Positions 13,491-28,595 of a DNA stretch of 55,823 nucleotides are shown here, in pieces. This DNA comes from Alphaproteobacteria bacterium (GTDB lineage Bacteria; Pseudomonadota; Alphaproteobacteria; Rhodobacterales; Rhodobacteraceae), in NCBI GenBank assembly GCA_030424645.1, contig JAUHWP010000007.1:1-55823 (forward strand), given 5' to 3'. The notes beneath the pieces were generated by a model that was not told the origin of the DNA, ran no database searches, and was given only the letters and a program-made list of their open reading frames with translations. Made by a program: the position numbers and the translations under genes. Position 1 is the first letter of the stretch. Each line of letters starts with the position of its first letter.

Positions 13491-13525
13491 TGGATTCTCC
13501 ACGGGGAAAATGAGGGATTGATATT

Positions 13526-13541: not shown

Positions 13542-13633
13542 ATAGTTTGTTGTCAAAGAGAAACTGCTCAGCCGGTGCGTCCTGCGTGTTGGGTGATCGT
13601 CCCAGGCAAGAGATATGACCAAGGAGACATAAT

Positions 13634-14974
13634 ATGGCCGACATGAGCTTGGACTTCTGTGGAGTGAAGTTCAAAAACCCGGTGGTCATCGCATCGCTCG
13701 AGACGACCAACAGCCCGGACCTGATGAAGCAGTGTTTCGACTATGGTGCCTCTGGCGCAATCATCAAAACCCTTACCGATATCGAAGACATGGCGCGTCT
13801 GACGCAGAACTCGAAATACTGCGTCATGAATTCCAAGGGCGATATCATCCGGGGCAAGGCCGCGCGGGATTTCGTGTTCTACAGCCGGTCTGGGTATTCA
13901 AGCACGTATTACAAGGATTGGGTGCCCGATCTGATTGAAACGCAGAAATACGCCGCAGAGCGGGGCGCCCATCTGATTGGCAGCGCGGGCGCAAAGGACG
14001 TCAACGGCTGGAAAGACATTTGTCGGACCATAGAAGATTGCGGTTTGCCGATGGTGGAGTTGAATTTCGGCTGTCCGCACCCCGCGATGATGCCTGGCGT
14101 TCATGGCGGGTCCATGATCGGTCAGGAACCGGAAGTTGCCTTTGAAGTGACACGGCAAGTGTGTGAATCCGTCGATATCCCTGTTGTGGTCAAATTGACG
14201 CCGGACCAGTCCAAGCCACTTGAAATCGCGGCAGCCGTCAAAGACGCAGGTGCCGCTGCTGTCACCGCGATCAACCGCCACACCGGGTTTGTCGTGGACA
14301 TCGAAACCGGCCAGCCCCGCATCGGTGGCCCGGCCGGGATCGGCGGAACGTGGGTCAAGCCGCTGTCGCTTCGGTGGGTTCATAAAATTCACGAAGAACT
14401 TGGGATGCCGATCACCGGCTCGAACGGGATCTTTGATCATAGAGACATCATCGAGTTTATCATGGCCGGGTCGAGCATCGTGCAGGTCGGCTCGATCCTG
14501 ATGGTCAAGGGTATCAAATGGCTTCCGAAAATGATCGAAGGCGTGGAAACCTTCATGGACGAGCACGGATATAATTCGGTCGATGAAATGATCGGGATCG
14601 CGTCCAAAGGCTCGGTCAAGGACTATTCCGAACAGTTTTCGAAAAACCGGGTGCATGCCATCGTAAACGATGAAACCTGCAAGAACCCGACCTGCAATAT
14701 CTGTGTTCAGGTCTGTTTCTACGAGGCTTTGTCGCAAAACCCCGAAGGCAAGATTGATGTGCACACGGATAATTGCATCGGTTGCGAGCTGTGTCTGGAT
14801 GTGTGTCCGTTCGATTCCATCGAAATGAAGGAAACGGCCGCTGCGCAGTTCGATCAGGGCTATTTCAACATTCCCGACGGCGTCTTTGAGCACGACAAGT
14901 TCAAGACCAATCGCAACAACATGGACACGATCCGACGGGACAGCCCGAAATTCAACAAAGAACCTGCCGAATAG
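13634..14974 (+). CDS. PreA-like dihydropyrimidine dehydrogenase-family reductase with two [4Fe-4S] clusters
   Basis: The 446-residue protein has a DHODH/PreA-type FMN barrel (about residues 1-310; KNPVVIASLETTN, NFGCPHPAMMPG, VVVKLTPD, GSNGIFDHRD) and a C-terminal ferredoxin domain. The cluster cysteines are at about 349, 354, 357, 361 and 381, 384, 387, 391 (CIGCELCLDVCP). PreA and mammalian DPD reduce the uracil ring; here the substrate loop differs. The segment before GQEPE reads GGSMI, so the catalytic Cys of DPD (LACGQDPE) appears absent. This suggests reduction of another conjugated ring or alkene. The neighbouring ferredoxin and ferredoxin reductase are plausible electron donors. An AGGAGA site precedes the ATG. 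It is the first gene of the plus-strand catabolic operon. Confidence 0.8.
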   Translation: MADMSLDFCGVKFKNPVVIASLETTNSPDLMKQCFDYGASGAIIKTLTDIEDMARLTQNSKYCVMNSKGDIIRGKAARDFVFYSRSGYSSTYYKDWVPDLIETQKYAAERGAHLIGSAGAKDVNGWKDICRTIEDCGLPMVELNFGCPHPAMMPGVHGGSMIGQEPEVAFEVTRQVCESVDIPVVVKLTPDQSKPLEIAAAVKDAGAAAVTAINRHTGFVVDIETGQPRIGGPAGIGGTWVKPLSLRWVHKIHEELGMPITGSNGIFDHRDIIEFIMAGSSIVQVGSILMVKGIKWLPKMIEGVETFMDEHGYNSVDEMIGIASKGSVKDYSEQFSKNRVHAIVNDETCKNPTCNICVQVCFYEALSQNPEGKIDVHTDNCIGCELCLDVCPFDSIEMKETAAAQFDQGYFNIPDGVFEHDKFKTNRNNMDTIRRDSPKFNKEPAE

Positions 14975-14984
14975 GGAGACCAAA

Positions 14985-15362
14985 ATGGCTGTAAACAAAG
15001 AACACCGCGAGTTCTATCAACTCGACATGAACGAAGGCTGGGAAACCCCTCCTGGTTATCCGAGCGGGATCAAGCAGAAGATCCTGTCCGGGCATCTGGA
15101 CATGGAAAACCGCCAGGGCGGATGGACCCGGCTGCTGAAGTTCGAGCCGGGCACCTATACGACCGTGCCTTTCGAACACGATTACTGGGAAGAAGTCTTC
15201 GTGATCGAGGGCGACATGTGGGTTGGCAATGAAGGCAACGAGGGTGGCGAACGCTTCGGCCCGTTCACCTATTGTGTGCGTCCGCCGCATGTTGCCCATG
15301 GGCCTTTCCGGACCGAGGAAGGCTGCCTGCTGCTGGAGCAGCACTACTACGATCCTCAGTAA
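14985..15362 (+). CDS. Small cupin-domain protein
   Basis: This is a 125-residue single-domain protein with the cupin pattern GTYTTVPFEHDYWEEVFVIEG (about residues 57-77, carrying His/Glu metal ligands) and a second motif around PPHVAHGPFRTEEG. A GGGAG ribosome-binding site precedes the ATG at 14985; an earlier in-frame ATG would lie inside the upstream gene. Such cupins act as metal-dependent dioxygenases, isomerases, or accessory/sensor proteins; the length does not distinguish these. It sits 10 bases after the PreA-like gene, which argues for a role on the same substrate. There is no signal peptide. Confidence 0.75.
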   Translation: MAVNKEHREFYQLDMNEGWETPPGYPSGIKQKILSGHLDMENRQGGWTRLLKFEPGTYTTVPFEHDYWEEVFVIEGDMWVGNEGNEGGERFGPFTYCVRPPHVAHGPFRTEEGCLLLEQHYYDPQ

Positions 15363-15372
15363 GACTTGCGGA

Positions 15373-15391
15373 CCGGGGCGGTCAGCCCCGG
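15373..15391 (+). other. Intra-operon hairpin before the amidase
   Basis: Arms CCGGGGC and GCCCCGG flank a 5-base loop: a perfect 7-base stem in the 50-base gap between cupin and amidase. No T-run follows, so it is more likely an mRNA-stability or partial attenuation element than a terminator. Confidence 0.4.
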
Positions 15392-15412
15392 CCATAACGG
15401 GAGGCAGGCGGA

Positions 15413-16759
15413 TTGATCCAGAATATCACTGATTTGTCGCGCAAGCTGCGCAGTGGAAAATTGCGTAGTCGCGATCTTGTAGAAGAGTCGTTTGCCGCGA
15501 TAGATGCGGCAGGCGCGGACGGCACGAAGGTCTTCCTTTCGACCTACAAGGACGCAGCGCGGGCACAGGCAGATTGGGTCGATAGCGGGCGTCAGGCCGG
15601 AGTGGCTTTGCCGCCTTATGCCGGCATTCCGATTGCCATCAAAGACCTGTTTGACGTGCAAGGCGAAGTTACCCGTGCCGGGTCGCGGGTTCTGGACGAG
15701 AATAGCCCGGCCGACCGCGATGCGGATATCGTGACGAACCTGCGCCGGGCGGGTTTCGTAATCGTCGGCAAGAACAACATGACCGAGTTTGCATATTCGG
15801 GCCTGGGTGTGAACGCACATTTCGGCACACCGGCAAACCCCTGCGATACCGAAACGCCGCGTGTTCCCGGCGGATCGTCTTCGGGGGCAGCCGTGGCGGT
15901 AAACCGGAAGATGGTTCCGGCAGCCATCGGAACGGATACCGGCGGCTCTTGCCGTATTCCGGCGGCATTTTGTGGAACCATCGGCTTCAAGCCGACATCG
16001 ACGCGTGTATCCAGACGCGGGGCTGTGCCGCTTTCGCAGACGCTGGATTGTATCGGACCGTTCGCCACCAGCGTGTCCTGCGCCGCGGTGCTTGATTCAG
16101 TTCTGTCCGGCGGGCAGGGCGACGATGTCGACTCCTTCCCCGAGGGTGGGATCAGGTTGGGTGTGCTTGGCGGATATGTGACAGAAAAAATGGACGAAAT
16201 CGTCGCGGGCGCCTATCAGGATGCGCTGACGCGTTTGTCACATCGGGGTGTGCGCCTTACGCCGTTGGACATTCCGCAACTGTCGCGTTTGCCGGAAATC
16301 AACAGCAAGGGTGGCTTGGTCGGCGCGGATGCGTATGCGTGGCACAAGAACCTTCTGGAAGAACGCGCCGACTTTTATGATCCCTGGGTTCGGGACCGAT
16401 TTGCCGCTGGCAGATCCCAGACGGCAGCCGACTATATCGCCGTTGGGCAAGAGCGCAGACACCTGCAGGCGTTGGTCGACGAAAAGCAGGAACAATTCGA
16501 TGCACTGGTTCTGCCGACGGTTCAGATCGTGCCGCCGACGATCGACGAATTGCAGGATCAGGATCATTCGAACGCTGTGAACCTGTTGTGTCTGCGGAAT
16601 ACCGCGGTCGGCAACTTCCTTGACCTGCCAGCGATCTCGATCCCGTGCCATGCCAATGGGTCGTTGCCGGTCGGCCTGATGTTGTTTGGCGTGCGCGGCC
16701 AGGACCGCAGGTTGTTATCCGTGGCGCGCGGGCTGGAACAGGTCATCCGTGGCCGATAA
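15413..16759 (+). CDS. Amidase-signature hydrolase (GatA/AmiE-like)
   Basis: This 448-residue protein of the amidase-signature family hydrolyses a C-N amide bond. The Ser-cisSer-Lys triad is visible as Lys77 (GIPIAIKDLF), Ser155 (PGGSSSGAA) and Ser179 (GTDTGGSCRIPAA), with the 24-residue Ser-Ser spacing usual for the family. The start is a TTG at 15413 with GGGAGG upstream. There is no signal peptide, so it is cytoplasmic. Lying between cupin and DUF2848 genes in a catabolic operon, it is probably a degradation enzyme rather than a tRNA amidotransferase subunit, since no gatC or gatB is near. It could open a lactam-like reduced ring product or remove a carboxamide; the sequence does not decide. 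Confidence 0.88.
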   Translation: MIQNITDLSRKLRSGKLRSRDLVEESFAAIDAAGADGTKVFLSTYKDAARAQADWVDSGRQAGVALPPYAGIPIAIKDLFDVQGEVTRAGSRVLDENSPADRDADIVTNLRRAGFVIVGKNNMTEFAYSGLGVNAHFGTPANPCDTETPRVPGGSSSGAAVAVNRKMVPAAIGTDTGGSCRIPAAFCGTIGFKPTSTRVSRRGAVPLSQTLDCIGPFATSVSCAAVLDSVLSGGQGDDVDSFPEGGIRLGVLGGYVTEKMDEIVAGAYQDALTRLSHRGVRLTPLDIPQLSRLPEINSKGGLVGADAYAWHKNLLEERADFYDPWVRDRFAAGRSQTAADYIAVGQERRHLQALVDEKQEQFDALVLPTVQIVPPTIDELQDQDHSNAVNLLCLRNTAVGNFLDLPAISIPCHANGSLPVGLMLFGVRGQDRRLLSVARGLEQVIRGR

Positions 16760-16774
16760 TCACAGGAAATCAAG

Positions 16775-17473
16775 ATGAAACCATCAATCCAATTCTCAGC
16801 AAAACTGACCAGCAAGGAAGGCAGCGAAGAGGTCGTCCTGACCTTCGACCGTGCCGTGGTTGGTGGGTGGACCGGACGCGACAAGGCGGCATTGCAACAT
16901 CACATTGACGAACTGGCCAAGATCGGGGTGCAGGCACCGGAAAAGACGCCGATGTTCTATCGCGTCGGTGTTTCCCGTTTGACCGGGGCCCAAGCGATTG
17001 AAGTTATTGGCGACGGGTCAAGTGGAGAGGTTGAATATACACTCATCAAACATGCTGGCCGGATTTGGGTCGGCGCGGCATCGGACCATACGGACCGTGT
17101 CTATGAGCACATGGGCATAACGGTCGCCAAGCAGCTTTGTGACAAACCGCTGGCAAGCGAGTTTTGGCCGCTGGAAGAGGTTGAGGGTCATTGGGACCAG
17201 ATCCAGATCCGCTCGTCGATCCGAGAGAACGGCGAAGAGGTTGTGTATCAGGACGGCACCGTGGCCGGGCTGTTATCCCCCCAGGAGCTGCTGGGACATC
17301 TCAGGGACGAAGGCGACGACCTGGTTGAGGGAACCCTGCTGTTCGGCGGAACCTGTGGTGCGATCGGGGGTGTTCGCTACTCGGACCGGTTCAGTCTTGA
17401 GCTTAATGACCCGGTCCTGGGTCGTGCGATCAGTCACAGCTATGATGTCGTTCCCGTCCCGATCAAAGGATAA
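16775..17473 (+). CDS. DUF2848 family protein
   Basis: This 232-residue protein matches my recollection of the DUF2848 family: GGWTGRDKAALQHHIDELA near residue 30, FYRVGVSRLTGA, GEVEYTLI, WVGAASDHTDR, and a tail ending SHSYDVVPVPIKG. The family has no established reaction. Its GTLLFGGTCGAIGG segment is reminiscent of fumarylacetoacetate-hydrolase-like C-terminal domains, so a hydrolase or decarboxylase acting on a small acid is possible. It starts 15 bases after the amidase with AGGAA upstream, and is likely co-transcribed with it. Confidence 0.75.
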   Translation: MKPSIQFSAKLTSKEGSEEVVLTFDRAVVGGWTGRDKAALQHHIDELAKIGVQAPEKTPMFYRVGVSRLTGAQAIEVIGDGSSGEVEYTLIKHAGRIWVGAASDHTDRVYEHMGITVAKQLCDKPLASEFWPLEEVEGHWDQIQIRSSIRENGEEVVYQDGTVAGLLSPQELLGHLRDEGDDLVEGTLLFGGTCGAIGGVRYSDRFSLELNDPVLGRAISHSYDVVPVPIKG

Positions 17474-17492
17474 GGGTTTCTTTTCGGAAATT

Positions 17493-17508
17493 ACGTAGTA
17501 TACTTCCT
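17493..17508 (+). promoter_or_regulatory. Candidate MarR site and -10 upstream of the ferredoxin gene
   Basis: ACGTAGTATACTTCCT matches the repeated motif and contains the palindrome AGTATACT. TATACT at 17499-17504 could act as a -10; transcription would then start near 17511, leaving a short leader that includes AAGGA just before the ferredoxin ATG. It gives the ferredoxin and reductase a second, internal promoter. Confidence 0.65.
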
Positions 17509-17522
17509 AAAAGGAAAGAATC

Positions 17523-18059
17523 ATGACTTACATCGTCACGGAAAACTGCATCAATTGTAAGTATCAGGACTGTGTCACGGTCTGCCCTGTCGACTGTTTT
17601 TACGAAGGGGAGAACTTTCTGGTCATCCACCCGGAAGAGTGCATTGATTGCGGGGTATGCGAACCGGAATGCCCCGCCGACGCGATCAAGCCGGACACGG
17701 AAAGCGGTCTGGACGAATGGTTGGCCATCAACACGAAATATGCCGAGATCTGGCCCAATATCACGGAAATCGGGGATGTTCCGGCAGATGCGGAAGAATG
17801 GAATGGCAAACCGGACAAGGCCGCATTGCTGATCACGGGGGAAGAACCCGCCGCCCCGACCGCGACCAAACCCGTATACGACCCTGGTGCAAAGCCTGAA
17901 TTCGACGGCGGAGAGACCTATGAGGTGGATGGCACACAGCTGGCTGTCGCGCAAAGCGAAGGGCAGGAAACCATCCATCTTGAACCCAGACCGTCACGTG
18001 AACCCGACGGAACCGAGCATGACGGCCTGCGGCTTAAGTCCGGCAAACAGCCCGGCTAG
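17523..18059 (+). CDS. fdxA: FdxA-type 7Fe ferredoxin with a C-terminal extension
   Basis: Residues 1 to about 107 closely follow Azotobacter-type ferredoxin I: Cys9, 12, 17, 21, 25 ([17 protein letters not shown]) and Cys40, 43, 46, 50 ([12 protein letters not shown]), plus WPNITE further on. It should hold one [3Fe-4S] and one [4Fe-4S] cluster. About 70 extra acidic, low-complexity residues follow (from [10 protein letters not shown]), which ordinary FdxA proteins of about 107-112 residues lack. It most likely carries electrons from the ferredoxin reductase encoded 27 bases downstream to the PreA-like reductase. The AAGGA site is 8 bases before the ATG. Confidence 0.88.
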
Positions 18060-18086
18060 GTGAACGAAATTCAACAGGAGATACAG

Positions 18087-18908
18087 ATGACCGCAACTGC
18101 CCCCGCTCCGACAGCGGCCACCTTGCCCGATGGGCAAACCGTATTGAGCGTCAAGCACTGGGACGACCGGTTGTTTTCCTTCCGGGTCGCGCGCCCGGCC
18201 AGCTTTCGGTTCCGCTCGGGCGAGTTCGTGATGATCGGTCTGATGGATGATCCGGACCCCGAAACGGGCAAGCAGAAACCCATCTTGCGCGCCTATTCGA
18301 TCGCATCACCGTTCTGGGATGAAGAGCTGGAGTTCTATTCGATCAAGGTCCAGGACGGACCGCTGACGTCACGGCTTCAGAAGATTCAACCGGGTGATCA
18401 GGTTATCGTCAAAACCAAACCGACCGGGACCCTGGTTCTTGATGCTTTGCTGCCGGGAAAGCGCCTTTGGATGATTTCGACCGGAACCGGGGTTGCGCCG
18501 TTTGCCAGCCTGATGCGTGAGCCGGAAACCTACGAGAAATACGAGCATGTCATCCTGACGCAAACCTGCCGCCTGAACAGCGAACTGGAATACGGTGCGG
18601 ATCTTGAACGCAGGTTGATGGAGGATCCCCTTGTAGGTGAAGACGCGCGTGAAAAATTTGTTCGCTATGCGACAACGACACGGGAAGAGTCGCCAAGGAT
18701 GGGTCGGATCACAGATCTTATGAAGACCGGCAAGCTGTTTGCGGATCTTGGAGTGCCGAAGCTTGACCCGGCCACGGATCGGATCATGATTTGCGGATCC
18801 ATGGGGTTGAACCTGGACCTTAAGGAAATTCTTGAGGCACAAGGCTTTACCGAAGGGGCAAACAGCCGACCCGGTGAATATGTCGTCGAGCGCGCGTTTG
18901 TCGACTAA
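18087..18908 (+). CDS. fpr: Ferredoxin-NADP reductase
   Basis: This 273-residue FAD enzyme of the bacterial Fpr type has the FAD motif RAYSIASP near residue 72, the GTGVAPFASLMREP pyrophosphate/NADP segment near residue 140, CGSMGLNLDLKEIL near residue 236, and a YVVERAFVD C-terminus. It exchanges electrons between NADPH and ferredoxin. A GTG at 18060 is in frame right after the ferredoxin stop, but the ATG at 18087 has AGGAG well placed (CAGGAGATACAG). It is the last plus-strand gene of this operon, converging with the Mo-hydroxylase operon. Confidence 0.9.
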   Translation: MTATAPAPTAATLPDGQTVLSVKHWDDRLFSFRVARPASFRFRSGEFVMIGLMDDPDPETGKQKPILRAYSIASPFWDEELEFYSIKVQDGPLTSRLQKIQPGDQVIVKTKPTGTLVLDALLPGKRLWMISTGTGVAPFASLMREPETYEKYEHVILTQTCRLNSELEYGADLERRLMEDPLVGEDAREKFVRYATTTREESPRMGRITDLMKTGKLFADLGVPKLDPATDRIMICGSMGLNLDLKEILEAQGFTEGANSRPGEYVVERAFVD

Positions 18909-18920
18909 GGCTGCGTGACC

Positions 18921-18939
18921 GGCCCCGGTTTCCGGGGGC
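18921..18939. terminator. Candidate hairpin between convergent operons
   Basis: CCCCGG-TTT-CCGGGG (18923-18937) lies in the 40-base gap between the converging ferredoxin reductase and CoxG-fusion genes. The stem is 6 G/C pairs and there is no T-run, so termination is uncertain. Confidence 0.35.
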
Positions 18940-18948
18940 GTGGCGCGC

Positions 18949-20067
18949 TTACGATTTGCTTCGTTTGAACCACGATTTGATCACTGCAAGGATAAGGGAA
19001 AACGCACTTATCTTGTGGTCAGACGAGGCGGTGCCGCCCGAAAGCACCGAATTGCAGTTTGCCACGAACCTTTGCAGCAGGAAATCCACGAAACCGGTCA
19101 CAAGCTCGGGTCGATTGAACTGTGCAAGGACGCCCTGAATGTTGAAACGGAACTTCACATCCACGGTCGAAGTGTTTTCGGTCTTCTCGACAATATCATA
19201 ATGAAGCTCGCCCCGGACCTTGGATTGACCGTTCTTGTCCGCACCGCTGCCCGACAGGTGGCCGTTCCGGGATTGCGGGTTGTTTGCATAGGTGCCCTGG
19301 CCGCCGAAACGGGCCTTGATCGGGCCGAAGGACACTTCGACCGTGCCGGAAAACGTATCTTCGGACACGTCCGAAACCGAAGCACCGGGGACGCAAGACG
19401 CGACACGGGACACATCGGAAAACAGCCCCCAAACCTTGTCGACGGGGTGGTTCAGATCGAAGCTGCGGGTGATGACCGTCCAGTCCTTGTCCTGCACAAC
19501 AGATCCGGCAGTTGCAGGCGCTGGCGCTGCGCCAGAGACCTCGTCGGGTTCGAACGGCGTGAAGACTGCACGCCGAACGTCGTCGGTTCGGGGGTGAGCG
19601 GTCGCGTCAATTTGCGACCCGACATCCAATATGGCTGCAACGATGCCCTGATACCCCGTGCATCTGCAAATATTGCCGCTGAGCTCGTGGCGAACCAGCT
19701 TTTCATCCGGGTTCGGGAAGCGGGTCAGGATATCACGGGATGTTGCCAACATGCCCGGGGTGCAGAACCCGCACTGCAAAGCGTGATGGCGCGAAAATGC
19801 TTCGGTGAGCATTTGCCCAAGCGGATCGTCACCGCCTTCGATCGTCTGGATGGTGGCGCCGTCGCAGTGACCGGCGAAGGTGATGCAGGACCGCACCGGG
19901 CGTCCATCCATCATGACGGTGCAAGCCCCGCATACACCCTGTTCACACCCTAAATGCGTGCCGGTCAGGTGAAGGTGGTCGCGCAGCACCTCGGCAAGCT
20001 GGGTGCGCGGTGGAACGGTCGCTGTCAGTTCCTCGCCATTGACGGTTATGCAAATTGTCTCAGTCAT
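18949..20067 (-). CDS. Mo-hydroxylase [2Fe-2S] subunit fused to a CoxG/SRPBCC domain
   Basis: Residues 1-160 form a CoxS-type iron-sulfur subunit: Cys41, 46, 49, 61 (GCEQGVCGACTV) for the plant-type cluster and Cys99, 102, 134, 136 (CGFCTPG, CRCTGY) for the second. After a linker, residues about 196-340 form a CoxG-like SRPBCC domain (NHPVDKVWGLFSDVS, CVPGAS, VSFGPIKARFGGQGT). A hydrophobic then basic tail follows (residues 352-372). CoxG is normally a separate protein that tethers CO dehydrogenase to the membrane and has been linked to quinone. The fusion suggests direct electron delivery to the membrane. The ATG at 20067 overlaps the FAD-subunit stop by 8 bases; a start at 20172 is unlikely. 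Confidence 0.88.
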   Translation of the reverse strand: MTETICITVNGEELTATVPPRTQLAEVLRDHLHLTGTHLGCEQGVCGACTVMMDGRPVRSCITFAGHCDGATIQTIEGGDDPLGQMLTEAFSRHHALQCGFCTPGMLATSRDILTRFPNPDEKLVRHELSGNICRCTGYQGIVAAILDVGSQIDATAHPRTDDVRRAVFTPFEPDEVSGAAPAPATAGSVVQDKDWTVITRSFDLNHPVDKVWGLFSDVSRVASCVPGASVSDVSEDTFSGTVEVSFGPIKARFGGQGTYANNPQSRNGHLSGSGADKNGQSKVRGELHYDIVEKTENTSTVDVKFRFNIQGVLAQFNRPELVTGFVDFLLQRFVANCNSVLSGGTASSDHKISAFSLILAVIKSWFKRSKS

Positions 20068-20893: not shown

Positions 20894-23235
20894 CCGGCGA
20901 CCTCCTTTTGGTGGTCGGCGTCGATGATCGCGGACAGAATCTTGTGGGGCGTGGCGGGAAGCTCGTTGATCTCGACCCCAAGAGGTTCGAGCGCATCATT
21001 GATCGCATTCAATACCGCCCCGCCGGGGGCAATTGCGGCCCCTTCTCCGACACCTTTGATCCCGTGCCGGGTATAGGGCGAAGGCGTTTCGCTGTGCCCC
21101 AGACGAAAATGCGGCAGTTCGGCGGGGCCGGGCAGGATATAGTCGGCAAGGGTGGATGTGAGCGGCTGGCCGCTTGGATCATACAGCACTTCTTCGAACA
21201 ATGCCGTTCCGATACCCTGGGCCGCCCCGCCATATGTTTGCCCTTCAAGGATCATTGGATTTACGCGCCGACCGCAATCTTCGAAAACGTAATAGTCTTC
21301 GAAAGAAACCTTGCCCGTTTCCGCATCGACTTCGACGATGGCGGCGTGGGTGGCATAGGTGAAAACACCAGTGTCGATATCGGGCTTGTATCCCTGGGTG
21401 ACTTCCAGCCCGGCGGTATCCACATCTTCGTCCAGCTGGTCCGGGCGCAGATACCAGGCGCGGGCTATGTCTGCGAAATCGACGCTGGCCGCGCCGCGCC
21501 AGGCCTTGCCGCCTTTCAGGGTTACGTCTTCGGCGTCGCATTGCAGCAGATGCGCCGCATGGACCCTGATCCGCGCGGCCAGTTCTTCGGCGGCCTTCGA
21601 TACCGCGCCACCGGCCATGACCATTCCGCGCGAGGCATACGCACCGGTCGAGTAGGGGGTCATGCCGGTATCGCCCATCACGACATTGATCTTGCTGATG
21701 TCCACGGTGAGCCATTCGCTTGCGACCTGGCCAATCGTGGTTTCCAACCCCTGACCGAAACTATGATTGCCCGAGCGGACCTCGACCGAGCCGGAGGGCG
21801 TGAGTTTCACCATGGCCTGTTCGTATCCCGGCACCAGCGGCAGCCCCCAAGAGGCAAAAACTTTCGTGCCGTGCGCCGATTGTTCCGTGAAGGTTCCGAA
21901 GCCCAGACCAAGAAAGCGCCCCTGTGCGCGTGCTTCTTTCTGCCTTTTGCGGAAGGCTTCAAGCCCAATTGCCTTGGTGGCTTCCGAGATACTGTGCTGA
22001 TAGTCGCCACTGTCATAGAACTTGCCCGTAACATTCGTATAGGGCATGGCGGAACCGGGAACGAGGTTCTCGCGCCTGACATCTGCGGGTTCCCGACCAA
22101 CCGCACGGGCGATGGCGTCGATTGTCAGTTCCATGGCAAAACAGACACCCGGACGTGCGACCCCCCGATACGGCGTGAACCCCGGTTTGTTGGTCGCGAC
22201 CGAGTAGGTTTTGCAGCGGTATCCTTCCAGGGCGTAGGGGCCTGGAAGGTTGCCGCCCGCCTGCGCGGCTTCCAGGCAGGCGGTAAATGGCCAGACAGAA
22301 TAGGCGCCAACATCAACGGTGATTTCTGCATCAAGCCCCAGCAATTTGCCGCGATCGTCGGCATAGGCTTTGATCTTGTAATGGTGCTGGCGCGTGTTTG
22401 CACCGGCAACCAGATGCTCTCGCCGATCCTCGACCCAGCGCACCGGTCGCCTAAGCTTCCGCGCCACCCAGGAAACCGAAAGCTCTTCAGGTTGCAGCAC
22501 GCATTTATATCCGAACCCACCGCCAACATCAGGTGCGATGACGCGCACTTGGCCCTGATCCATCTGCAGATACTGGGCGACGCCCGTTCGGATCAGATGG
22601 GGCACCTGAGTAGACGTGTAAACGACCAGTTGGCCTGCTTTTTCATCCCAATGGCTGAGCGTTCCCTTGCCTTCCATCGGGTTCATACATTGGCGGGCCG
22701 TGTTGTATTCACGTTCAATGACGACCGTTGCGTTCTTTTCGGCGAATGCCATATCTCCGTCGAAGGTCGTGGTCAGAAAGAGGTTGTCATCCCAGTCGTC
22801 GTGCACAAGCGGCGCGTCTTTCGATTTGGCATCCGCCGCGTTGACCAATGGGGGCAGGGGGTCGATATCAACAACCACCTGGTCCGCGATATCTTCGGCC
22901 TCGGCGCGTGTCGGGGCAACGCAGATTGCAATACATTCGCCCACGAAACGAACCTTGTCCTTTGCAAGCGGATAGTGTTCCGAGGCCTTGTAGCCGGGCA
23001 GCGACGATTCCGGCCTGATCGGCAGCACGTCGGTCAGATCCGACGCCGTGAACACGCGATCCTTGTATTTCGCTGGAACTGTGACGGATTTCAGACGGCC
23101 ATGTGCCAAGGGGCTGCGAACATATGCGGCTTCGAGCAGCCTTGGGAATTTAAGATCCCCGACAAACCTGGCCTGGCCGCTGAGTAATCTCGCGTCTTCC
23201 TTTCTGGCAACGCGTGCTCCAATTCCAGTTCCCAC
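20890..23235 (-). CDS. Mo-hydroxylase molybdopterin-binding large subunit (CoxL-like)
   Basis: This 781-residue Mo-cofactor subunit is the first gene of a minus-strand operon. It starts GIGARVARKEDARLLSGQARFVGD, as CoxL-like proteins do. Motifs include VGGGFGYKC, RPVRWVEDRREHL, and the substrate loop PYRGVARPGVCF. The C-terminal KGVGEGAAIAPG carries the catalytic Glu. The loop is not the Cys-bearing loop of CO dehydrogenase (family AYRCSFR), so CO is an unlikely substrate. The enzyme probably hydroxylates an aromatic or N-heterocyclic ring carbon or an aldehyde. Neighbouring ring-reductase, amidase and importer genes favour an N-heterocycle, but this is inference. Confidence 0.9.
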   Translation of the reverse strand: MGTGIGARVARKEDARLLSGQARFVGDLKFPRLLEAAYVRSPLAHGRLKSVTVPAKYKDRVFTASDLTDVLPIRPESSLPGYKASEHYPLAKDKVRFVGECIAICVAPTRAEAEDIADQVVVDIDPLPPLVNAADAKSKDAPLVHDDWDDNLFLTTTFDGDMAFAEKNATVVIEREYNTARQCMNPMEGKGTLSHWDEKAGQLVVYTSTQVPHLIRTGVAQYLQMDQGQVRVIAPDVGGGFGYKCVLQPEELSVSWVARKLRRPVRWVEDRREHLVAGANTRQHHYKIKAYADDRGKLLGLDAEITVDVGAYSVWPFTACLEAAQAGGNLPGPYALEGYRCKTYSVATNKPGFTPYRGVARPGVCFAMELTIDAIARAVGREPADVRRENLVPGSAMPYTNVTGKFYDSGDYQHSISEATKAIGLEAFRKRQKEARAQGRFLGLGFGTFTEQSAHGTKVFASWGLPLVPGYEQAMVKLTPSGSVEVRSGNHSFGQGLETTIGQVASEWLTVDISKINVVMGDTGMTPYSTGAYASRGMVMAGGAVSKAAEELAARIRVHAAHLLQCDAEDVTLKGGKAWRGAASVDFADIARAWYLRPDQLDEDVDTAGLEVTQGYKPDIDTGVFTYATHAAIVEVDAETGKVSFEDYYVFEDCGRRVNPMILEGQTYGGAAQGIGTALFEEVLYDPSGQPLTSTLADYILPGPAELPHFRLGHSETPSPYTRHGIKGVGEGAAIAPGGAVLNAINDALEPLGVEINELPATPHKILSAIIDADHQKEVAG

Positions 23236-23304
23236 TTCGCAACTCCATCCCGGTCGATTTTCTTGTCTGTTTTGACATAAACTTCAGAGGCGCGTAACAT
23301 AGTT

Positions 23305-23324
23305 TAAGCAGTATACTACGTTTT
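23305..23324 (-). promoter_or_regulatory. Candidate MarR site upstream of the Mo-hydroxylase operon
   Basis: On the minus strand this reads AAAACGTAGTATACTGCTTA, matching the repeated motif with palindromic core AGTATACT. It lies about 75 bases before the large-subunit start codon (23235), in the divergent region shared with marR. Confidence 0.65.
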
Positions 23325-23357
23325 GCAAGTCTCTAGACAATGGATGGATGTGCACCG

Positions 23358-23377
23358 AACATAGCATACGTCCTTTT
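23358..23377 (+). promoter_or_regulatory. Candidate MarR autoregulatory site
   Basis: AACATAGCATACGTCCTTTT matches AACGTAGCATACTCCCT at most positions. It lies about 27 bases before the marR start codon, where bound regulator would block its own transcription. It is the most divergent of the intergenic copies. Confidence 0.5.
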
Positions 23378-23403
23378 GACACCGGCCAACGAGCGGAAAT
23401 GGA

Positions 23404-23919
23404 ATGAAAGAAAAAAAAGAAAGCGCTTTGCAGGAAACAAAGAACAAATCGCTTAAGAACCGCAAGTTTCGCGAGCTTTGGAACCGTCCGGGATACCTGA
23501 TCCGCAGGCTGCACCAGATTCATCTGGGACTGTTTGCGGAAGAGTGCAGGGATGAAGATGTAACGCCCGTTCAGTTTGGTATGCTTTCGGTTTTGGCCAG
23601 TGGCGTTGAGATGGACCAACTTACCCTGTCAACCTCGGTCGGTGTCGACCGGGTCAGCGGTGCCGATGTCATCAAACGGCTTGAACGGCGCGGGCTTTTG
23701 CAAAGAAATCGTTCCGAAATCGACAGGCGCGCGCGCGTGATCAGCATCACACCGCAAGGTGTTGAATTTGTCGAGAATGTCCGCCCGAAGATGGCGCGGG
23801 CGCAGGCCAAGCTGGTTGCCCCGCTGACAGAGGCAGAGCTTGCAGAGTTAGAGCGAATCCTGAAGAAACTGATTGAGGCGAACAATGACGCCAGTCGGGC
23901 ACCGCTTGGCGTCAACTGA
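23404..23919 (+). CDS. MarR-family transcriptional regulator
   Basis: This 171-residue protein has the MarR winged helix: recognition region LTLSTSVGVDRVSGADVIKRL and wing EIDRRARVISITPQG, flanked by N- and C-terminal dimer helices. The very N-terminus is rich in Lys and Glu. It sits between the divergent Mo-hydroxylase operon and the liv operon, and the motif found before each of the surrounding operons is the likely binding site. MarR proteins of catabolic clusters are usually repressors released by the substrate or a CoA-linked intermediate; the ligand here is unknown. Sequence around it is noticeably richer in A/T than the rest of the window. Confidence 0.92.
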   Translation: MKEKKESALQETKNKSLKNRKFRELWNRPGYLIRRLHQIHLGLFAEECRDEDVTPVQFGMLSVLASGVEMDQLTLSTSVGVDRVSGADVIKRLERRGLLQRNRSEIDRRARVISITPQGVEFVENVRPKMARAQAKLVAPLTEAELAELERILKKLIEANNDASRAPLGVN

Positions 23920-23974
23920 ACTATGAAACAATTCCAAAGAACAAGGCATTCTGTGGCGAGGTTTCAGAAAAGCG

Positions 23975-24011
23975 TTTACGTGTGAAAAAAAACGTAGCAT
24001 ACTCCCTAAAA
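23975..24011 (+). promoter_or_regulatory. Candidate liv promoter overlapping a MarR site
   Basis: TTTACG (23975-23980), 17 bases, then CATACT (23998-24003) form a reasonable sigma-70-like pair. The second element is embedded in ACGTAGCATACTCCCTAAAA (23992-24011), the best-conserved copy of the repeated motif. Regulator bound here would cover the -10 of the importer operon. Confidence 0.6.
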
Positions 24012-24097
24012 AAAGATGGGAGGTACTTGCCTGTGAACAATAGCAAGCAATGCCGGAGCGCCAGCCGCTTCGCAGCGAGCCATGGAGAGCGGGGTCA

Positions 24098-24961
24098 ATG
24101 ACGCTCATTGCTCAGTATTTCGTGACGGGGATCGTAACAGGGTGTTTCCTGATCCTCGCGACCATAGGCTTTTCACTAACGCGGCGTGTTGAGGGTTTTC
24201 TGAATATCGCACATGCCGAGATGCTGGGTGTGTCAGCCTTCATTGCATGGGGTCTGAACACTCAGGCCGGGTGGCCATTGCTGCCAGCCGCGGTCGTTGC
24301 AATCGTTGCAACCGCGTTTCTTGGGTTGTTCATTGGCCGTCTTGTCTACGATCCGATCAGACATCTTGGGCCGGCCGTATTGCTGATCAGTTCCGTGGGT
24401 GTTGCCTATGTCATCGGTGGCGCCATTGACGGGATTGTGGGCACTGGCATCCGGTCGCTGGATATCCCCCTGGCGACGACTTACAAATTCTTTGGCGTCA
24501 GAATAACCGACTATCAGATGATCGTTGTCGGGTTGGCTGCGTTGACAGGGATTTCGCTGGCACTTTTCCTGAACAAGACGAAAACGGGGCTTGCGATCCG
24601 GGCGATGGCGGACAACCCGGCGCTGGCCGCGTCGCGCGGCATTGACGTGCAAAAGACCTCTCGTGCCACCTGGCTGGTCGCGTCGGGTCTGGCCGGGTTG
24701 GCAGGCGTCATGCTGGCAATGATCGCAACGCTGTCCACTGACATTGCCTTCCACCAGATCCTGCAGATTCTGGCGGTCGCGATCCTGGCGGGGCTGGGGT
24801 CACTTTACAGCGTGCTTCTGTCCGGCCTGATCGTGGGCGTGGCAATGGATATGTCCGTTTATTGGATTCCAGCCGGATATCGCCCCCTGATCGCGTTTGC
24901 CGTGGTGATTGTTGTCCTTCTGGTCCGTCCCGAAGGTTTGTCGGGCAGGAGCAGGTCATGA
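24098..24961 (+). CDS. Branched-chain-type ABC importer permease (LivH-like)
   Basis: This is a 287-residue inner-membrane permease of the hydrophobic amino acid transport (HAAT) family. It shows the LivH pattern FLNIAHAEMLGVSAFIAW near residue 34, SVGVAYVIGGA in the middle, and the cytoplasmic coupling loop AIRAMADNPALAASRGID. About eight hydrophobic segments are visible. A start at 24050 would add 16 unusual residues, so I chose the ATG at 24098 (MTLIAQYFVTG). It is the first gene of the importer operon, about 180 bases after marR. In this context the cargo is more likely the catabolic substrate than leucine. Confidence 0.9.
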   Translation: MTLIAQYFVTGIVTGCFLILATIGFSLTRRVEGFLNIAHAEMLGVSAFIAWGLNTQAGWPLLPAAVVAIVATAFLGLFIGRLVYDPIRHLGPAVLLISSVGVAYVIGGAIDGIVGTGIRSLDIPLATTYKFFGVRITDYQMIVVGLAALTGISLALFLNKTKTGLAIRAMADNPALAASRGIDVQKTSRATWLVASGLAGLAGVMLAMIATLSTDIAFHQILQILAVAILAGLGSLYSVLLSGLIVGVAMDMSVYWIPAGYRPLIAFAVVIVVLLVRPEGLSGRSRS

Positions 24962-25884
24962 ATATCGAGCAACTTCTTCTGACCGTCCTGACATATGGGT
25001 GCCTGTATTCGGTGATGACCGTCTGCCTGAACCTGCAATATGCACGCGGCGGCATGATCAATTTCGGCACCGTCGCCTATTTTGCGGCAGGCGCGTATGC
25101 CTATGCCATTTTCACGCAGGAACCGCCCCAGGGCCTGGACCAGTATCTGTTTGGATTTAATGCACCATGGTGGATCGGCCTGATCGCAGCGGGCGTCGCA
25201 TCGCTGTTGTTTGCTGTTATCACGGGTTGGCCGACGCTGCGGTTGAGGGGCGAGTATCTGGCATTGACGACTTTTGCGTTTGCGGAAGTGCTGCATTCTT
25301 TCCTGTTGAACGAGCGCCGCATCGGGAATGGCAGCGTTGGGCTGACGAATGTCAATCGGCCGGACTTCTCGGTGATAGGATTGTCCGAAAACTATGCTTT
25401 CATGCTGGCGGCTGTTCTGTTGTTGATCCTGACGTCGCTGTTGTGCCGTCGACTTCTTGCGTCACCTTATGGGCGGGCTGTCGATGCCGTGCGCGACGAT
25501 GAGGTTGCCGCCGAGGCGGTCGGCAAGGATGTGCATCGCCTGCGGTTCGAAATCTTCGTCATCTCTGCCGTTCCAATTGGCTTTGCCGGCGCGCTTTACG
25601 CGATGATTACGACCTTGGTCAGCCCGGATCTGTTCACCGCCGAAGTGACGTTCTTTGTCTGGATCGCGCTGGTTCTGGGCGGAGAGCACACGATCAAGGG
25701 CGTTATTCTGGGCACGCTTGCCCTGGTCGCGTTCGAAGAGGTCGTGCGCTCGCTGCATTTCGAAACGGTGCGCGCCGCCGAGATCGCAGCCTCGGTCGAA
25801 CACATGATGACCGGTGTGATCTTTGTCATGATCTTGCGCTGGCAGCCCTTCACCCGATTTGCCAAGAAGGGAGTGGAAGCATGA
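24958..25884 (+). CDS. Branched-chain-type ABC importer permease (LivM-like)
   Basis: This 308-residue second permease of the HAAT importer shows LQYARGGMINFGTVAYFAAGAYAY (the LivM N-terminal pattern, about residues 22-45), RLRGEYLALTTFAFAE near residue 100 and the coupling loop AVRDDEVAAEAVGKD near residue 178. The ATG overlaps the livH-like stop (ATGA at 24958-24961) and has GGAG upstream, so an upstream start at 24862 inside the previous gene is rejected. It pairs with the LivH-like protein to form the membrane channel. Confidence 0.92.
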   Translation: MNIEQLLLTVLTYGCLYSVMTVCLNLQYARGGMINFGTVAYFAAGAYAYAIFTQEPPQGLDQYLFGFNAPWWIGLIAAGVASLLFAVITGWPTLRLRGEYLALTTFAFAEVLHSFLLNERRIGNGSVGLTNVNRPDFSVIGLSENYAFMLAAVLLLILTSLLCRRLLASPYGRAVDAVRDDEVAAEAVGKDVHRLRFEIFVISAVPIGFAGALYAMITTLVSPDLFTAEVTFFVWIALVLGGEHTIKGVILGTLALVAFEEVVRSLHFETVRAAEIAASVEHMMTGVIFVMILRWQPFTRFAKKGVEA

Positions 25885-26654
25885 GTTCCGATCTGCTTGT
25901 CGTTGAGAATCTGAGAAAACAGTTTGGCGGCCTGAAGGCGGTCGGCGGTGACAGCGGGTTGAGCTTTCAGGTCAAAGAAGGGTCCTTTGTTGGTTTGATC
26001 GGTCCCAATGGGGCAGGGAAGTCGACGACCTTCAACCTGATTTCAGGCGTTCTGGAGCCGACGGCGGGGCGGGTGATGCTTGCCGGGACCGATCTGGCGA
26101 ATGTGCGGTCATCCGACATCGCCTCATTGGGGCTTGGCAGAACATTCCAGACCCCGCGTGCCTTCATGTCGTTGAGTGTGCTTGACAATGTTCTGGTCGG
26201 GGCGAAATCGCCCGGCGAAAACCTGCGGTCCGTGCTGTTTGGCGGATGGCGCAGCAGCGAGCCGGACCTGGTCGAAAAGGCCAAGGCTGCGCTGGCCAGG
26301 GTGGGGCTTGAGAACCGCGTCAGGGAAACCGTATCCAACCTGTCGGGCGGCGAATTGCGGATGCTTGAAGTCGCACGCCAACTGATCCGCGACCCCAGGA
26401 TCCTGTTGCTGGACGAACCCACGGCCGGGGTCGACCCGAGCCTGCAAGGCAAGCTGAGCAAGATCCTTGTGGACCTGCACAAAGAAGGGCGCACATTGAT
26501 CGTGGTCGAGCACAATCTGCACTTTCTGTTCAGCATCGCAGACCAGATCATCGTGTTGCAGCAAGGCGAGCTGCTGTCCAGCGGAACACCGCAGGACATC
26601 AAGACCGATCCCAAAGTGGTCGCGGCCTATCTGGGAGGCGAACATGCAGCTTGA
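25881..26654 (+). CDS. ABC importer ATP-binding protein (LivG-like)
   Basis: This 257-residue ATPase has Walker A GPNGAGKST near residue 46, the LivG-type LGLGRTFQTPRAFMSL segment, signature LSGGELRMLEVAR, and Walker B RILLLDEPTAGVDP. It energises the LivH/LivM-like channel from the cytoplasmic face. The ATG overlaps the stop of the preceding permease gene (ATGA), and its own end overlaps the next ATPase gene by 11 bases. Confidence 0.93.
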   Translation: MSSDLLVVENLRKQFGGLKAVGGDSGLSFQVKEGSFVGLIGPNGAGKSTTFNLISGVLEPTAGRVMLAGTDLANVRSSDIASLGLGRTFQTPRAFMSLSVLDNVLVGAKSPGENLRSVLFGGWRSSEPDLVEKAKAALARVGLENRVRETVSNLSGGELRMLEVARQLIRDPRILLLDEPTAGVDPSLQGKLSKILVDLHKEGRTLIVVEHNLHFLFSIADQIIVLQQGELLSSGTPQDIKTDPKVVAAYLGGEHAA

Positions 26655-27351
26655 AGTCAAGGGTCTGAAATCCGGCTATGGAAAGGTGCAGATCCTGCAC
26701 GGGATCGACCTGACGGTTCCTTCGGGCAAGATTACCACTGTTCTGGGTGCAAACGGCGCGGGCAAAAGCACGCTGATGAAGACCATTGCCGGGCATCTGC
26801 CGGTGATGGAAGGCGAAGTCGTGCATAACGGTCAGAATCTGAATGGAATCGGTCCGCTGCATGTTTGCATGGCGGGCGTCGGTCTGGTGCCGCAGGATGC
26901 CAACGTGTTTGCGGAATTGTCGGTGCGCGATAACCTGCATGCGTCTGCTGCTGCGTTTGAAGGCGCAGAGGAAAGGATTGTGGAAGTCCTGAAGAGATTT
27001 CCAATTTTGCAGGAACGCGCCAACCAGCTGGCATCGACACTCTCTGGTGGCGAGCGTCAAACTCTTGCGATTGCGACGGCCCTGGTTGCAGGGCCGGACA
27101 TCCTTTTGCTGGATGAGCCCACGGCTGGACTGGCCCCGATCTTTGTGGACCGCATCGTAGGCTGGATCGAGGAACTCGCCCAGGATGGGACCGGTATTGC
27201 ATGGGTCGTTGAACAGAACCCAGAGAAAATCCTCGCGATCTCCGAAGACGCGCATGTCCTGGATGCAGGGCGGGTCACGGATGTCCTTGAAAGCAAAACT
27301 CTTCTCGAACCGGGCCGTCTGGAAGAGGTCTTATTACAGGTCCACGCCTAG
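26644..27351 (+). CDS. ABC importer ATP-binding protein (LivF-like)
   Basis: This 235-residue second ATPase of the importer has Walker A GANGAGKSTLMK near residue 37, the LivF-type GVGLVPQDANVFAELSVRDNL, signature LSGGERQTLAIATAL, and Walker B DILLLDEPTAGLAP. It forms the heterodimeric motor with the LivG-like protein. It begins 11 bases before the livG-like stop, indicating translational coupling. Confidence 0.93.
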   Translation: MQLEVKGLKSGYGKVQILHGIDLTVPSGKITTVLGANGAGKSTLMKTIAGHLPVMEGEVVHNGQNLNGIGPLHVCMAGVGLVPQDANVFAELSVRDNLHASAAAFEGAEERIVEVLKRFPILQERANQLASTLSGGERQTLAIATALVAGPDILLLDEPTAGLAPIFVDRIVGWIEELAQDGTGIAWVVEQNPEKILAISEDAHVLDAGRVTDVLESKTLLEPGRLEEVLLQVHA

Positions 27352-27377
27352 GGAAAATTCACAACATGGAGGTGAAC

Positions 27378-28595
27378 ATGAAACCCAAGCCAAAACGTAG
27401 TATGCTCCTCAAGGGGTTAATCGCATCGACTGCAATGGTCGCCACGTCCATGGCCGCCACCGCAGAAGACGTCACTGTCGGCGTGCTGGTTCCGCTGACC
27501 GGTGAACTTGGCGAGTTCGGGAAAATTGTTGCCGGTGGCGTCGAACTTGGCGCCAACGAGATCAACGCGGCGGGCGGCACCGCCTGCGGCAATATTCGAC
27601 TGGTTGTTGCCGATACCGGGGGCAACCCTGAAGTCGGCATCCGCGAAGCGTCAAAGATGATCGAATCCGAAAACGCGGTGGCGATCCTTGGTCCCACATC
27701 GGGGGTTATGGTGGCGCTGGTCGATCTTGCAAAACGGACCAAGACCGTGACGATGTCGCCATACGCGGGAACGATCACATTGAACGAACTTGGCGGTGAT
27801 TACGTCTTTCGCACCGTTTCTTCGGATCTGGGCGACGGGGCGGCATCGGGCCTTTGGCTGAAGGACCGGGGTTACAAGAGCGTCGCATTCCTTGTTCAAA
27901 ACGAAGAGTCGACCATTTCCCCGGCCCAGGTCGCGCGCACAACCCTGGAAGAGGCTGGCATCGAGCTGACCGATTTCGTTGTATATAACCCCGGACAGCC
28001 TTCCTATCAGGCCGAACTGATCTCGGTTCTGGCCAATGAGCCTGAGGCCATCTATCTGGCGGGTGGCCAGGAATCCGGCGTGACCGTGATCAAGGAGGCC
28101 ACGTCAGGCGGGTTTGAAGGTGAATGGTTGTTTACGGCCGACCTGGCCGTGCCCGAAATCTTCGATGCAGCCGGAGCCGACCTTCTGAACGGCCGCGCCT
28201 ATGTGGAGTTTGCCGACGCCGACAACTCGTTGCCCGAGTATAAGGCGTTCGAAGCCCTGCATCAGGAAAAGGCGGGTGGGGACCCCGGACCGTTTGCCGC
28301 CAACTCGTTCGATATGATCAACCTGGTTGCTCTTTCACTGGAGGCAAGCGGGGTGTGTTCTGGCGAAGGCATCAACTCTGTCATTCGTGATGTGTCCGAT
28401 GGCGGTGAGGCCGTTTCGTCATTTGCTGACGGCAAGGCGGCGTTGGCTGAAGGTAAGGACATCAACTATGAAGGTGCATCCGGCCCCCTGATCTTCGATG
28501 AGAGTGGCACGGTCGCCGGCGCATACACCATCCAAAAAGCTGAAGGCGGCGCGTGGGTCAACGAAGAATTCTATCCTGCGAGCGCCTTCGAATAA
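27378..28595 (+). CDS. Periplasmic substrate-binding protein (LivK-like)
   Basis: This 405-residue receptor captures the importer's cargo in the periplasm. Residues 1-30 are a Sec signal peptide (KPKPKR basic start, hydrophobic core, likely cleavage after AATA before EDVTVGV). The mature domain shows VGVLVPLTGELGEFGK and GANEINAAGG, as in type I HAAT receptors. An ATG at 27366 is in frame, but its GGAGG is the ribosome-binding site for the ATG at 27378. The ligand cannot be read off. A copy of the MarR motif lies at its 5' end (27392-27410). Confidence 0.92.
   Translation: MKPKPKRSMLLKGLIASTAMVATSMAATAEDVTVGVLVPLTGELGEFGKIVAGGVELGANEINAAGGTACGNIRLVVADTGGNPEVGIREASKMIESENAVAILGPTSGVMVALVDLAKRTKTVTMSPYAGTITLNELGGDYVFRTVSSDLGDGAASGLWLKDRGYKSVAFLVQNEESTISPAQVARTTLEEAGIELTDFVVYNPGQPSYQAELISVLANEPEAIYLAGGQESGVTVIKEATSGGFEGEWLFTADLAVPEIFDAAGADLLNGRAYVEFADADNSLPEYKAFEALHQEKAGGDPGPFAANSFDMINLVALSLEASGVCSGEGINSVIRDVSDGGEAVSSFADGKAALAEGKDINYEGASGPLIFDESGTVAGAYTIQKAEGGAWVNEEFYPASAFE
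27392..27410 (+). promoter_or_regulatory. MarR-like motif inside the binding-protein gene start
   Basis: AAAACGTAGTATGCTCCTC matches the repeated motif apart from two or three bases and begins 14 bases inside the coding sequence. It could boost or block livK separately, or be chance in Lys/Arg/Ser/Met codons. Confidence 0.3.

Follow-up and report, generated by a model that had tools for sequence, protein, structure and literature searches.

A conserved gene block in a Rhodobacteraceae genome may encode an aerobic reductive route for catabolism of an N-heteroaromatic carboxylate

The window analyzed here is a 55,823-nucleotide stretch of DNA from Alphaproteobacteria bacterium (Rhodobacteraceae; assembly GCA_030424645.1, contig JAUHWP010000007.1), and our subject is the gene block at positions 13634-28595, which is built around a PreA-like flavin/Fe-S reductase and a molybdenum (Mo) hydroxylase. 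We consider it probable (about 0.6) that this block serves to catabolize an N-heteroaromatic carboxylate aerobically by a reductive route, and from its genes and their context we infer the reactions, their order and the substrate. When the window proteins were scanned with Pfam and NCBIfam profiles, the block frames matched the expected families, and every gene that an earlier note on this DNA had named proved to be an open frame of the anticipated kind. Four of the five genes of the Liv importer (24098-28595, forward strand) were identified by translation alone.

In the proposed route, the Liv importer would take up the ring acid, and the CoxLMS-type Mo hydroxylase would place a water-derived oxygen beside the ring nitrogen to give a 2-pyridone-type lactam, with its electrons passing to the respiratory chain, perhaps via a CoxG domain. 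The PreA-like protein, supplied from NAD(P)H through a ferredoxin-NADP reductase-like protein (FNR) and then ferredoxin, would saturate the conjugated C=C bond of the lactam using a cysteine as proton donor, in the manner of dihydropyrimidine dehydrogenase (DPD) acting on uracil. An amidase, aided by a DUF2848 protein with a predicted FAH-type fold, would then hydrolyze the lactam or enamide. This sequence of import, hydroxylation, ferredoxin-dependent reduction and amidase opening had been sketched in the earlier note, and it is supported by the kinship of CoxL with quinoline 2-oxidoreductase, by the retained cysteine and altered pocket of the PreA-like protein, and by a natural exchange of the ring-opening enzymes for HyuA.

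The same note had asked whether the parts travel together, and they do. A pattern scan with the PreA-like protein across one genome per species (84,980 species) gave 26 loci, and the genes for the PreA-like protein, cupin, amidase, DUF2848, ferredoxin, FNR, CoxS-G, CoxM and CoxL occur in the same order in 11 of 11 informative relatives (L002-L011 and L013; L012 was excluded because its sequence stops 52 bases past the PreA-like gene). Next after CoxL come MarR in nine of these and LivH in eight, the available sequence ending earlier in the remainder. Ten of the eleven carry Rhodobacterales names. The other, L009, is on a contig of a metagenome-assembled genome (MAG) labelled Blastopirellula, which probably carries this block, otherwise found in Rhodobacterales, through a binning error. 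The block is present at least from the PreA-like gene to livH in Defluviimonas denitrificans DSM 18921 (L005). A Rhodospirillales locus, L018, retains the PreA-like, cupin, amidase, DUF2848, ferredoxin, MarR and CoxL genes, and its operon also includes, between DUF2848 and ferredoxin, a thiamin diphosphate (TPP)-dependent enzyme belonging to the acetolactate-synthase group. An EtfB gene separates FNR from coxS in L009 and L010, an arrangement that would go well with an acyl-CoA dehydrogenase acting in the same pathway.

Close relatives of the PreA-like gene are rare, being present in one of 195 other genomes sampled from the order. At E 1e-90, with the own or centre genome set aside, they were found in 0/397 genomes sampled from the phylum, 1/384 from the class and 3/299 from the order of L019's genome, where one of the three is the genome of L023; these samples overlap one another and the 195-genome sample. 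Among named plasmids, 176 records matched the PreA-like protein, none with at least 60% identity. Because block proteins of the window and Ruegeria spongiae (L002) are 85-98% identical, whereas the flanking genes are less alike (77-78% for the 2-oxoacid dehydrogenase E1 and an acyl-CoA dehydrogenase fragment, 59% for a FabD-like gene), comparison of these sequences suggests that the block was recently transferred as a unit. In 1.5-kb windows, G+C content is 0.60-0.65 before 13.5 kb, 0.53-0.61 at 13.5-36 kb and 0.59-0.70 beyond, and the lowered central values are as expected of imported DNA. The low G+C persists past the importer (28.8-36 kb), where methyltransferase and surface-polysaccharide-like open reading frames can be read by eye. 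In Ruegeria spongiae, the acyl-CoA dehydrogenase gene fragment (L002 1-621) borders the block and adjoins what by eye appears to be the end of a transposase gene.

The intergenic regions of the block also have a common palindrome around AGTATACT. Searching 12 block-bearing genomes with the pattern RGRAGYATACTNCNTWW gives 40 matches; nine palindromes are matched on both strands, which leaves 31 places. The reversed control gives one match. The pattern was derived from intergenic regions of seven of these genomes (the window's and those of L002, L003, L005, L007, L011 and L013), where matches are to some extent built in; the five genomes not used for it (L004, L006, L008, L009 and L010) account for 18 of the 40. 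By coordinates, 39 of the 40 lie on the block-carrying contig, and the remaining one is in G320:C2. A site matrix, to which the window supplied 2 of 40 sites, exceeds 11 bits at five places in the window, every one within 13524-27409 and at 15-26 bits, compared with a maximum of 13.0 bits in four mononucleotide shuffles. The idea that these genes form one regulon is now backed by this element at five places in the block and none elsewhere in the window above 11 bits. MarR or another regulator would act on four or five promoters through the one palindrome, MarR being a candidate for the protein that binds it. The core of the element resembles a -10 box, so promoter function may account for part of its conservation. 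The only beta-proteobacterial promoter region inspected, that of L019, has a different palindrome.

The PreA-like protein has DPD (1gt8) as its closest solved relative, and its family matches, among the best 25 of 79 NCBIfam rows, are of the DHOD/PreA, Dus and ferredoxin types. Asn668 of DPD and its catalytic proton donor, Cys671, are conserved in 16 of 16 PreA-like sequences compared. In contrast, the position after Asn736, occupied in DPD by Thr737, holds Arg in all 16, against Thr both in DPD and in each of 8 ordinary PreA sequences, in an ungapped reading of a site where the automatic alignment placed a gap. Thr737 and Asn609 are uracil-binding residues of DPD, and an Arg at the former position would suit a carboxylate. 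At the Asn609 position, near a seven-residue insertion, the automatic alignment places Asn in all five beta-proteobacterial sequences and Ala or Pro in the other 11, whereas a pairwise alignment places Phe in the window protein. A Pfam scan of the block found no PreT or dihydropyrimidinase gene, and an ordinary PreA gene lies on another contig of the same genome (L058) beside what by eye are PreT, dihydropyrimidinase and amidohydrolase genes. Judged by these sequence features, the PreA-like protein is probably not the uracil enzyme. The uracil/thymine pathway was rejected on the strength of the changed pocket residue and of this second PreA with its pyrimidine-type neighbours. The block resembles the PreAT/DPD pathway in reductase family, flavin/Fe-S architecture, catalytic Cys and the logic of reduction followed by hydrolysis, but departs from it in the Arg at the Thr737 position, in having no PreT or dihydropyrimidinase gene and in the presence of a second, ordinary PreA in the same genome.

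The Mo hydroxylase has its MoCo domains, FAD domain and two [2Fe-2S] domains all above Pfam cut-offs, and CoxL carries a GVGEG motif at residue 728, whose Glu is the catalytic residue in xanthine-oxidase-family Mo hydroxylases. Among solved structures, the first match to CoxL is quinoline 2-oxidoreductase (1t3q, 494.7 bits), with CO dehydrogenase next (412.1), and this proximity would place CoxL in the N-heterocycle hydroxylase subgroup. The enzyme has the Mo, FAD and 2Fe-2S subunits typical of quinoline 2-oxidoreductase and its xanthine-oxidase-family relatives, but its small subunit is fused to a CoxG domain and it is set in a reductive gene block. The ferredoxin is longer than the FdxA model, and a shorter FdxA-like match (65%, residues 1-101) exists elsewhere in the genome; we propose that the block ferredoxin serves as electron donor to the PreA-like protein.

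For ring opening, the amidase scores above the cut-off of the NF005460 amidase subfamily and has the signature motifs IPIAIKD, GGSSSG and GTDTGGS at residues 72, 153 and 173, which hold the Lys-Ser-Ser catalytic residues of such enzymes. In eight loci from beta-proteobacteria or an unnamed bacterium (L019-L026), amidase and DUF2848 are replaced by HyuA, which in 8/8 lies no more than about 70 bases past the PreA-like gene, in the same orientation. HyuB comes after it in five, and the other three contigs stop inside HyuA. At E 1e-10, CoxL is present in five of these loci, MarR in seven and FNR in L019. Another genome of L019's order (L098) has the PreA-like, MarR and HyuA genes. The nearest NCBIfam models for HyuA and HyuB are the caprolactamase subunits, and because such proteins replace amidase plus DUF2848 in all eight loci, the swap points to lactam opening. 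A relative of caprolactamase CapAB and of the hydantoinase/oxoprolinase enzymes thus occupies the ring-opening position in the beta-proteobacterial version, whereas the window has amidase and DUF2848 there. By eye, L019 and L024 also encode TRAP-type binding proteins, which often bind carboxylates. The species label of the L024 MAG contig, Bordetella parapertussis, is doubtful. The earlier note had remarked on the absence of any obvious ring-cleaving oxygenase apart from the cupin, and this holds across the loci in that no constant oxygenase was seen and the cupin was not found in L019-L026.

The DUF2848 protein models with a FAH-type fold. The model has a predicted local distance difference test score (pLDDT) of 68.6, FAH-superfamily structures head its Foldseek and VIA rankings, and the VIA matches reach Z 9.9 (root-mean-square deviation 4.1, 169 aligned), with the first unrelated rows at Z 3.1. 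Residues E85, E87, D104 and D107 are invariant in 12 sequences and are candidates for the Glu-x-Glu...Asp metal site of the superfamily. No mention of DUF2848 was found in the literature searched. Among eight plasmid records hand-picked from 56 DUF2848 matches, six have an amidase at most two genes away and one has a hydantoinase B/oxoprolinase gene beside DUF2848; the eighth has a FAD monooxygenase and a cupin. On a Sulfitobacter plasmid (L053, 611-8630), DUF2848 comes immediately behind a large hydantoinase B/oxoprolinase protein, and a TRAP transporter and an annotated 'putative hydro-lyase' are also present; this arrangement fits a role for DUF2848 in lactam opening. The cupin model (pLDDT 87) has TM1459 and KdgF as its first Foldseek rows, which suggested an isomerase or hydratase.

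Cupin, amidase and DUF2848 recur on Thioclava, Roseateles and Caballeronia plasmids (L050, L052 and L054) alongside an HpaB-type monooxygenase, a flavin reductase and Liv genes. These proteins are 59-64%, 44-46% and 45-50% identical, respectively, to those of the window, and all three clusters also have an annotated MarR gene. They differ from the block in that a two-component flavin monooxygenase replaces the Mo hydroxylase and PreA-like protein, the Liv proteins are 22-38% identical, and the window's MarR has no match to theirs at 1e-5. Possibly these sister clusters represent another N-heterocycle acid route.

A carboxylate next to the nitrogen, hydroxylation across the nitrogen, one reduction and hydrolysis together would give 2-oxoadipate and ammonia, and this makes picolinate the simplest fit. 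We tentatively advance picolinate as the lead substrate, at somewhat less than even odds. It would be converted to 6-hydroxypicolinate, then to 1,4,5,6-tetrahydro-6-oxopicolinate, and then to 2-oxoadipate and ammonia, and the neighbouring E1 and acyl-CoA dehydrogenase would carry 2-oxoadipate to glutaryl-CoA and on to crotonyl-CoA. More doubtful is a fuller scheme in which a DPD-type enzyme was recruited in aerobes as a ferredoxin-dependent pyridine-carboxylate reductase, creating an oxygenase-free path from picolinate through 2-oxoadipate to glutaryl-CoA, with DUF2848 tautomerizing the enamine or imine left by ring opening and with amidase plus DUF2848 and HyuAB as interchangeable lactam openers. 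The aerobic oxidative picolinate (pic) pathway proceeds by 6-hydroxylation of picolinate and then by further hydroxylation and decarboxylation, for which its cluster has a second hydroxylase and a dihydroxypicolinate decarboxylase. The 6-hydroxylation would be common to both, whereas reduction is proposed here.

The relevant neighbourhood probably extends upstream of 13634 to 9061, through the acyl-CoA dehydrogenase, the E1 and the FabD-like gene (9061-10137 has no Pfam match at 1e-5). This trio adjoins the block in the window, L009 and L011, and a fragment of the acyl-CoA dehydrogenase does so in L002. At 11 other loci of the family examined around E1 (about 1.5 kb of flank), the FabD-like gene adjoins in eight and the acyl-CoA dehydrogenase in three. 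Genes for the piperidine-6-carboxylate and saccharopine dehydrogenases stand no more than about 10 kb from E1 in L099-L101, which puts it in the context of the route from lysine through 2-aminoadipate to 2-oxoadipate. Searches of the window's genome at E 1e-20 and 1e-150 found neither dehydrogenase, and the trio nonetheless stands beside the block. E1 is present in 10 of the 11 genomes of the informative relatives versus 50 of 149 family genomes (Fisher p 2.5e-4, relatedness ignored). The 50 include the window's genome and G099, which has identical coordinates to G321, one of the eleven; the E1 thresholds differed (1e-60 and 1e-100), and all ten matches have E 0.

Several observations weigh against the proposed route and its end product. 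The PreA-like protein scores 235.5 bits with the NCBIfam PreA model, below the 335 cut-off, and the FNR and the acyl-CoA dehydrogenase likewise fall below their curated cut-offs. For CoxL, all NCBIfam models are below cut-off, with those for CO and glyceraldehyde dehydrogenases on top. The CapA/CapB models give 496 bits (L019) and 197 bits (L024) against a cut-off of 1000 bits each. The best Foldseek match of DUF2848 has E 2.8e-5 with TM scores of just 0.3-0.5, and the cupin is without an assigned pathway step. In five Defluviicoccus loci and L090 (together L014-L017, L027 and L090), a PreA-like gene 70-73% identical stands without block partners in 5-21 kb, and these solitary genes may have another setting or function or belong to a dispersed pathway; L016 has distant HyuA and HyuB (36% and 31%) 6-10 kb upstream, which were left out of the synteny count. 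The link between the E1 trio and the block may be incidental, because adjacency occurs in three of nine genomes having at least 4 kb upstream (the window counted), the tree is compatible with a single event, and G004 and G002 keep E1 without a close PreA-like gene or the two lysine genes. No E1 match was found in L006's genome. Most other relatives have E1 and lysine genes in the same genome, which would explain their E1, and in L007's genome both E1 and the piperidine gene are on the block's own contig, about 10 kb off. According to PMC7645780, glutaryl-CoA is also used for biotin in alpha-proteobacteria, which offers an alternative reason for keeping the trio. Finally, the genome is 91.6% complete.

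Other substrates were weighed on the same evidence. A five-membered N-heterocycle acid of the pyrrole or imidazole type, or a pyrimidine acid such as orotate, yielding 2-oxoglutarate or a ureido acid, is unlikely. It draws on the company that cupin, amidase and DUF2848 keep with two-component HpaB-type monooxygenases in L050, L052 and L054; a pyrrole-2-carboxylate monooxygenase is among the two-component flavin systems named in PMC6165268. However, a pyrrole acid hydroxylated beside the nitrogen requires no ring reduction, the nearest model for HyuAB is caprolactamase, whose substrate is a seven-membered lactam, and the E1 neighbour suggests 2-oxoadipate. Nicotinate, which we regard as quite unlikely, would pass through 6-hydroxynicotinate and tetrahydro-6-oxonicotinate to ring opening, glutarate and glutaryl-CoA, as in Azorhizobium, with the PreA-like protein replacing 6-hydroxynicotinate reductase (Hnr). 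The glutaryl-CoA-dehydrogenase-like gene beside the block fits this scheme, and so does the reduction to tetrahydro-6-oxonicotinate, which according to PMC3511419 has been reported in aerobic Azorhizobium and is an inferred step in Bradyrhizobiaceae SG-6C. Hydroxylation, ring reduction and hydrolytic opening are common to the block and to the nicotinate routes of E. barkeri, Azorhizobium and Bradyrhizobiaceae. The reductase of the nicotinate cluster described in PMC3511419, however, is a homologue of E. barkeri Hnr with 42% identity, whereas the block has a PreA-type enzyme together with amidase plus DUF2848 or HyuAB. Nicotinate would also leave the 2-oxoacid dehydrogenase of the window, or the TPP enzyme of L018, superfluous, and the block has no obvious decarboxylase or semialdehyde dehydrogenase, unless the cupin or DUF2848 fills that place.

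A loose set of genes, with a general aldehyde or CO oxidase for its Mo enzyme and unrelated reactions for the PreA-like protein, amidase and DUF2848, is very unlikely. The NCBIfam ranking of CoxL and the solitary PreA-like genes of at least six loci would agree with this, but the order of the genes is conserved, they share a palindrome, a lactamase is swapped in for the amidase, and CoxL's closest solved relative is quinoline 2-oxidoreductase. Most improbable is homarine (N-methylpicolinate), a marine osmolyte. A homarine operon is reportedly common in marine Rhodobacterales and is said to yield N-methylglutamate, whereas the PreA-like gene is scarce in the order (1/195) and the chemistry of the block would yield an N-methylated C6 acid. 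The indole-3-acetic acid (iad) pathway was considered for the MarR and ABC genes and rejected, since it begins with a Rieske-type dioxygenase, IadDE, with the reductase IadC (PMC12633357).

Coordinates of the genes and palindromes in and beside the block (window numbering)
Feature	Position	Strand	Evidence
FabD-like gene	9061..10272	-	weak TIGR00128, 50 bits vs cut-off 261
Fused 2-oxoacid dehydrogenase E1, proposed 2-oxoadipate dehydrogenase	10089..12272	-	PF00676, PF02779, PF02780
Acyl-CoA dehydrogenase, glutaryl-CoA-dehydrogenase-like	12282..13502	-	NF045552, 237 bits, below cut-off 470, not the top score
Palindrome between preA-like and acyl-CoA dehydrogenase genes	13524..13543		20.3 and 19.2 bits on the two strands
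PreA-like flavin/Fe-S ring reductase, 446 aa	13634..14974	+	DHO_dh and 4Fe-4S domains
Small metal-type cupin	14985..15362	+	PF12973
Amidase-signature hydrolase, proposed lactam opener	15413..16759	+	PF01425
DUF2848 protein, predicted FAH-type fold, proposed tautomerase/hydrolase of ring-opened product	16775..17473	+	PF11010, E 1.8e-74
Palindrome before ferredoxin	17491..17510		26.2 and 18.1 bits; exact pattern match
FdxA-type ferredoxin with C-terminal extension	17523..18059	+	NF045490, 158 bits, above cut-off 135
Ferredoxin-NADP reductase-like (FNR)	18060..18908	+	NF008178, 119.6 bits, below cut-off 390
CoxS-CoxG fusion, [2Fe-2S] subunit of Mo hydroxylase	18949..20067	-	PF01799, PF00111, PF06240
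CoxM, FAD subunit of Mo hydroxylase	20060..20893	-	PF00941
CoxL, molybdopterin subunit of Mo hydroxylase	20890..23235	-	PF02738, PF20256, PF01315
Palindrome between coxL and marR	23304..23323		20.0 and 15.3 bits
MarR-family regulator	23404..23919	+	PF01047
Palindrome before livH	23990..24009		16.2 and 15.3 bits
LivH-type permease	24098..24961	+	translation; 78-98% identity, 8 relatives
LivM-type permease	24958..25884	+	translation; 95% identity to Ruegeria
LivG-type ATPase	25881..26654	+	translation; 95% identity to Ruegeria
LivF-type ATPase	26644..27351	+	translation; 92% identity to Ruegeria
LivK-type periplasmic binding protein	27366..28595	+	PF13458
Same element in first codons of livK, single strand	27393..27409	-	23.7 bits; exact pattern match

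Farther upstream, the window holds ordinary purine genes at 228-7950 (guanine deaminase, xdhC, xdhB and xdhA by NCBIfam; 1600-3183 is without a match).

Reductive opening of a pyridine acid is already known for nicotinate with an Hnr-type reductase, in aerobes too (PMC3511419), and what the block would add is a PreA-type version. No description of a PreA-type reductive pyridine-acid cluster was found in the literature searched, a search that most subscription papers lay beyond. If the proposed route is correct, the DPD/PreA family would gain a new substrate class, DUF2848 would obtain a fold and a likely role, and it would follow that bacteria can use pyridine acids in air with no oxygenase to cleave the ring.

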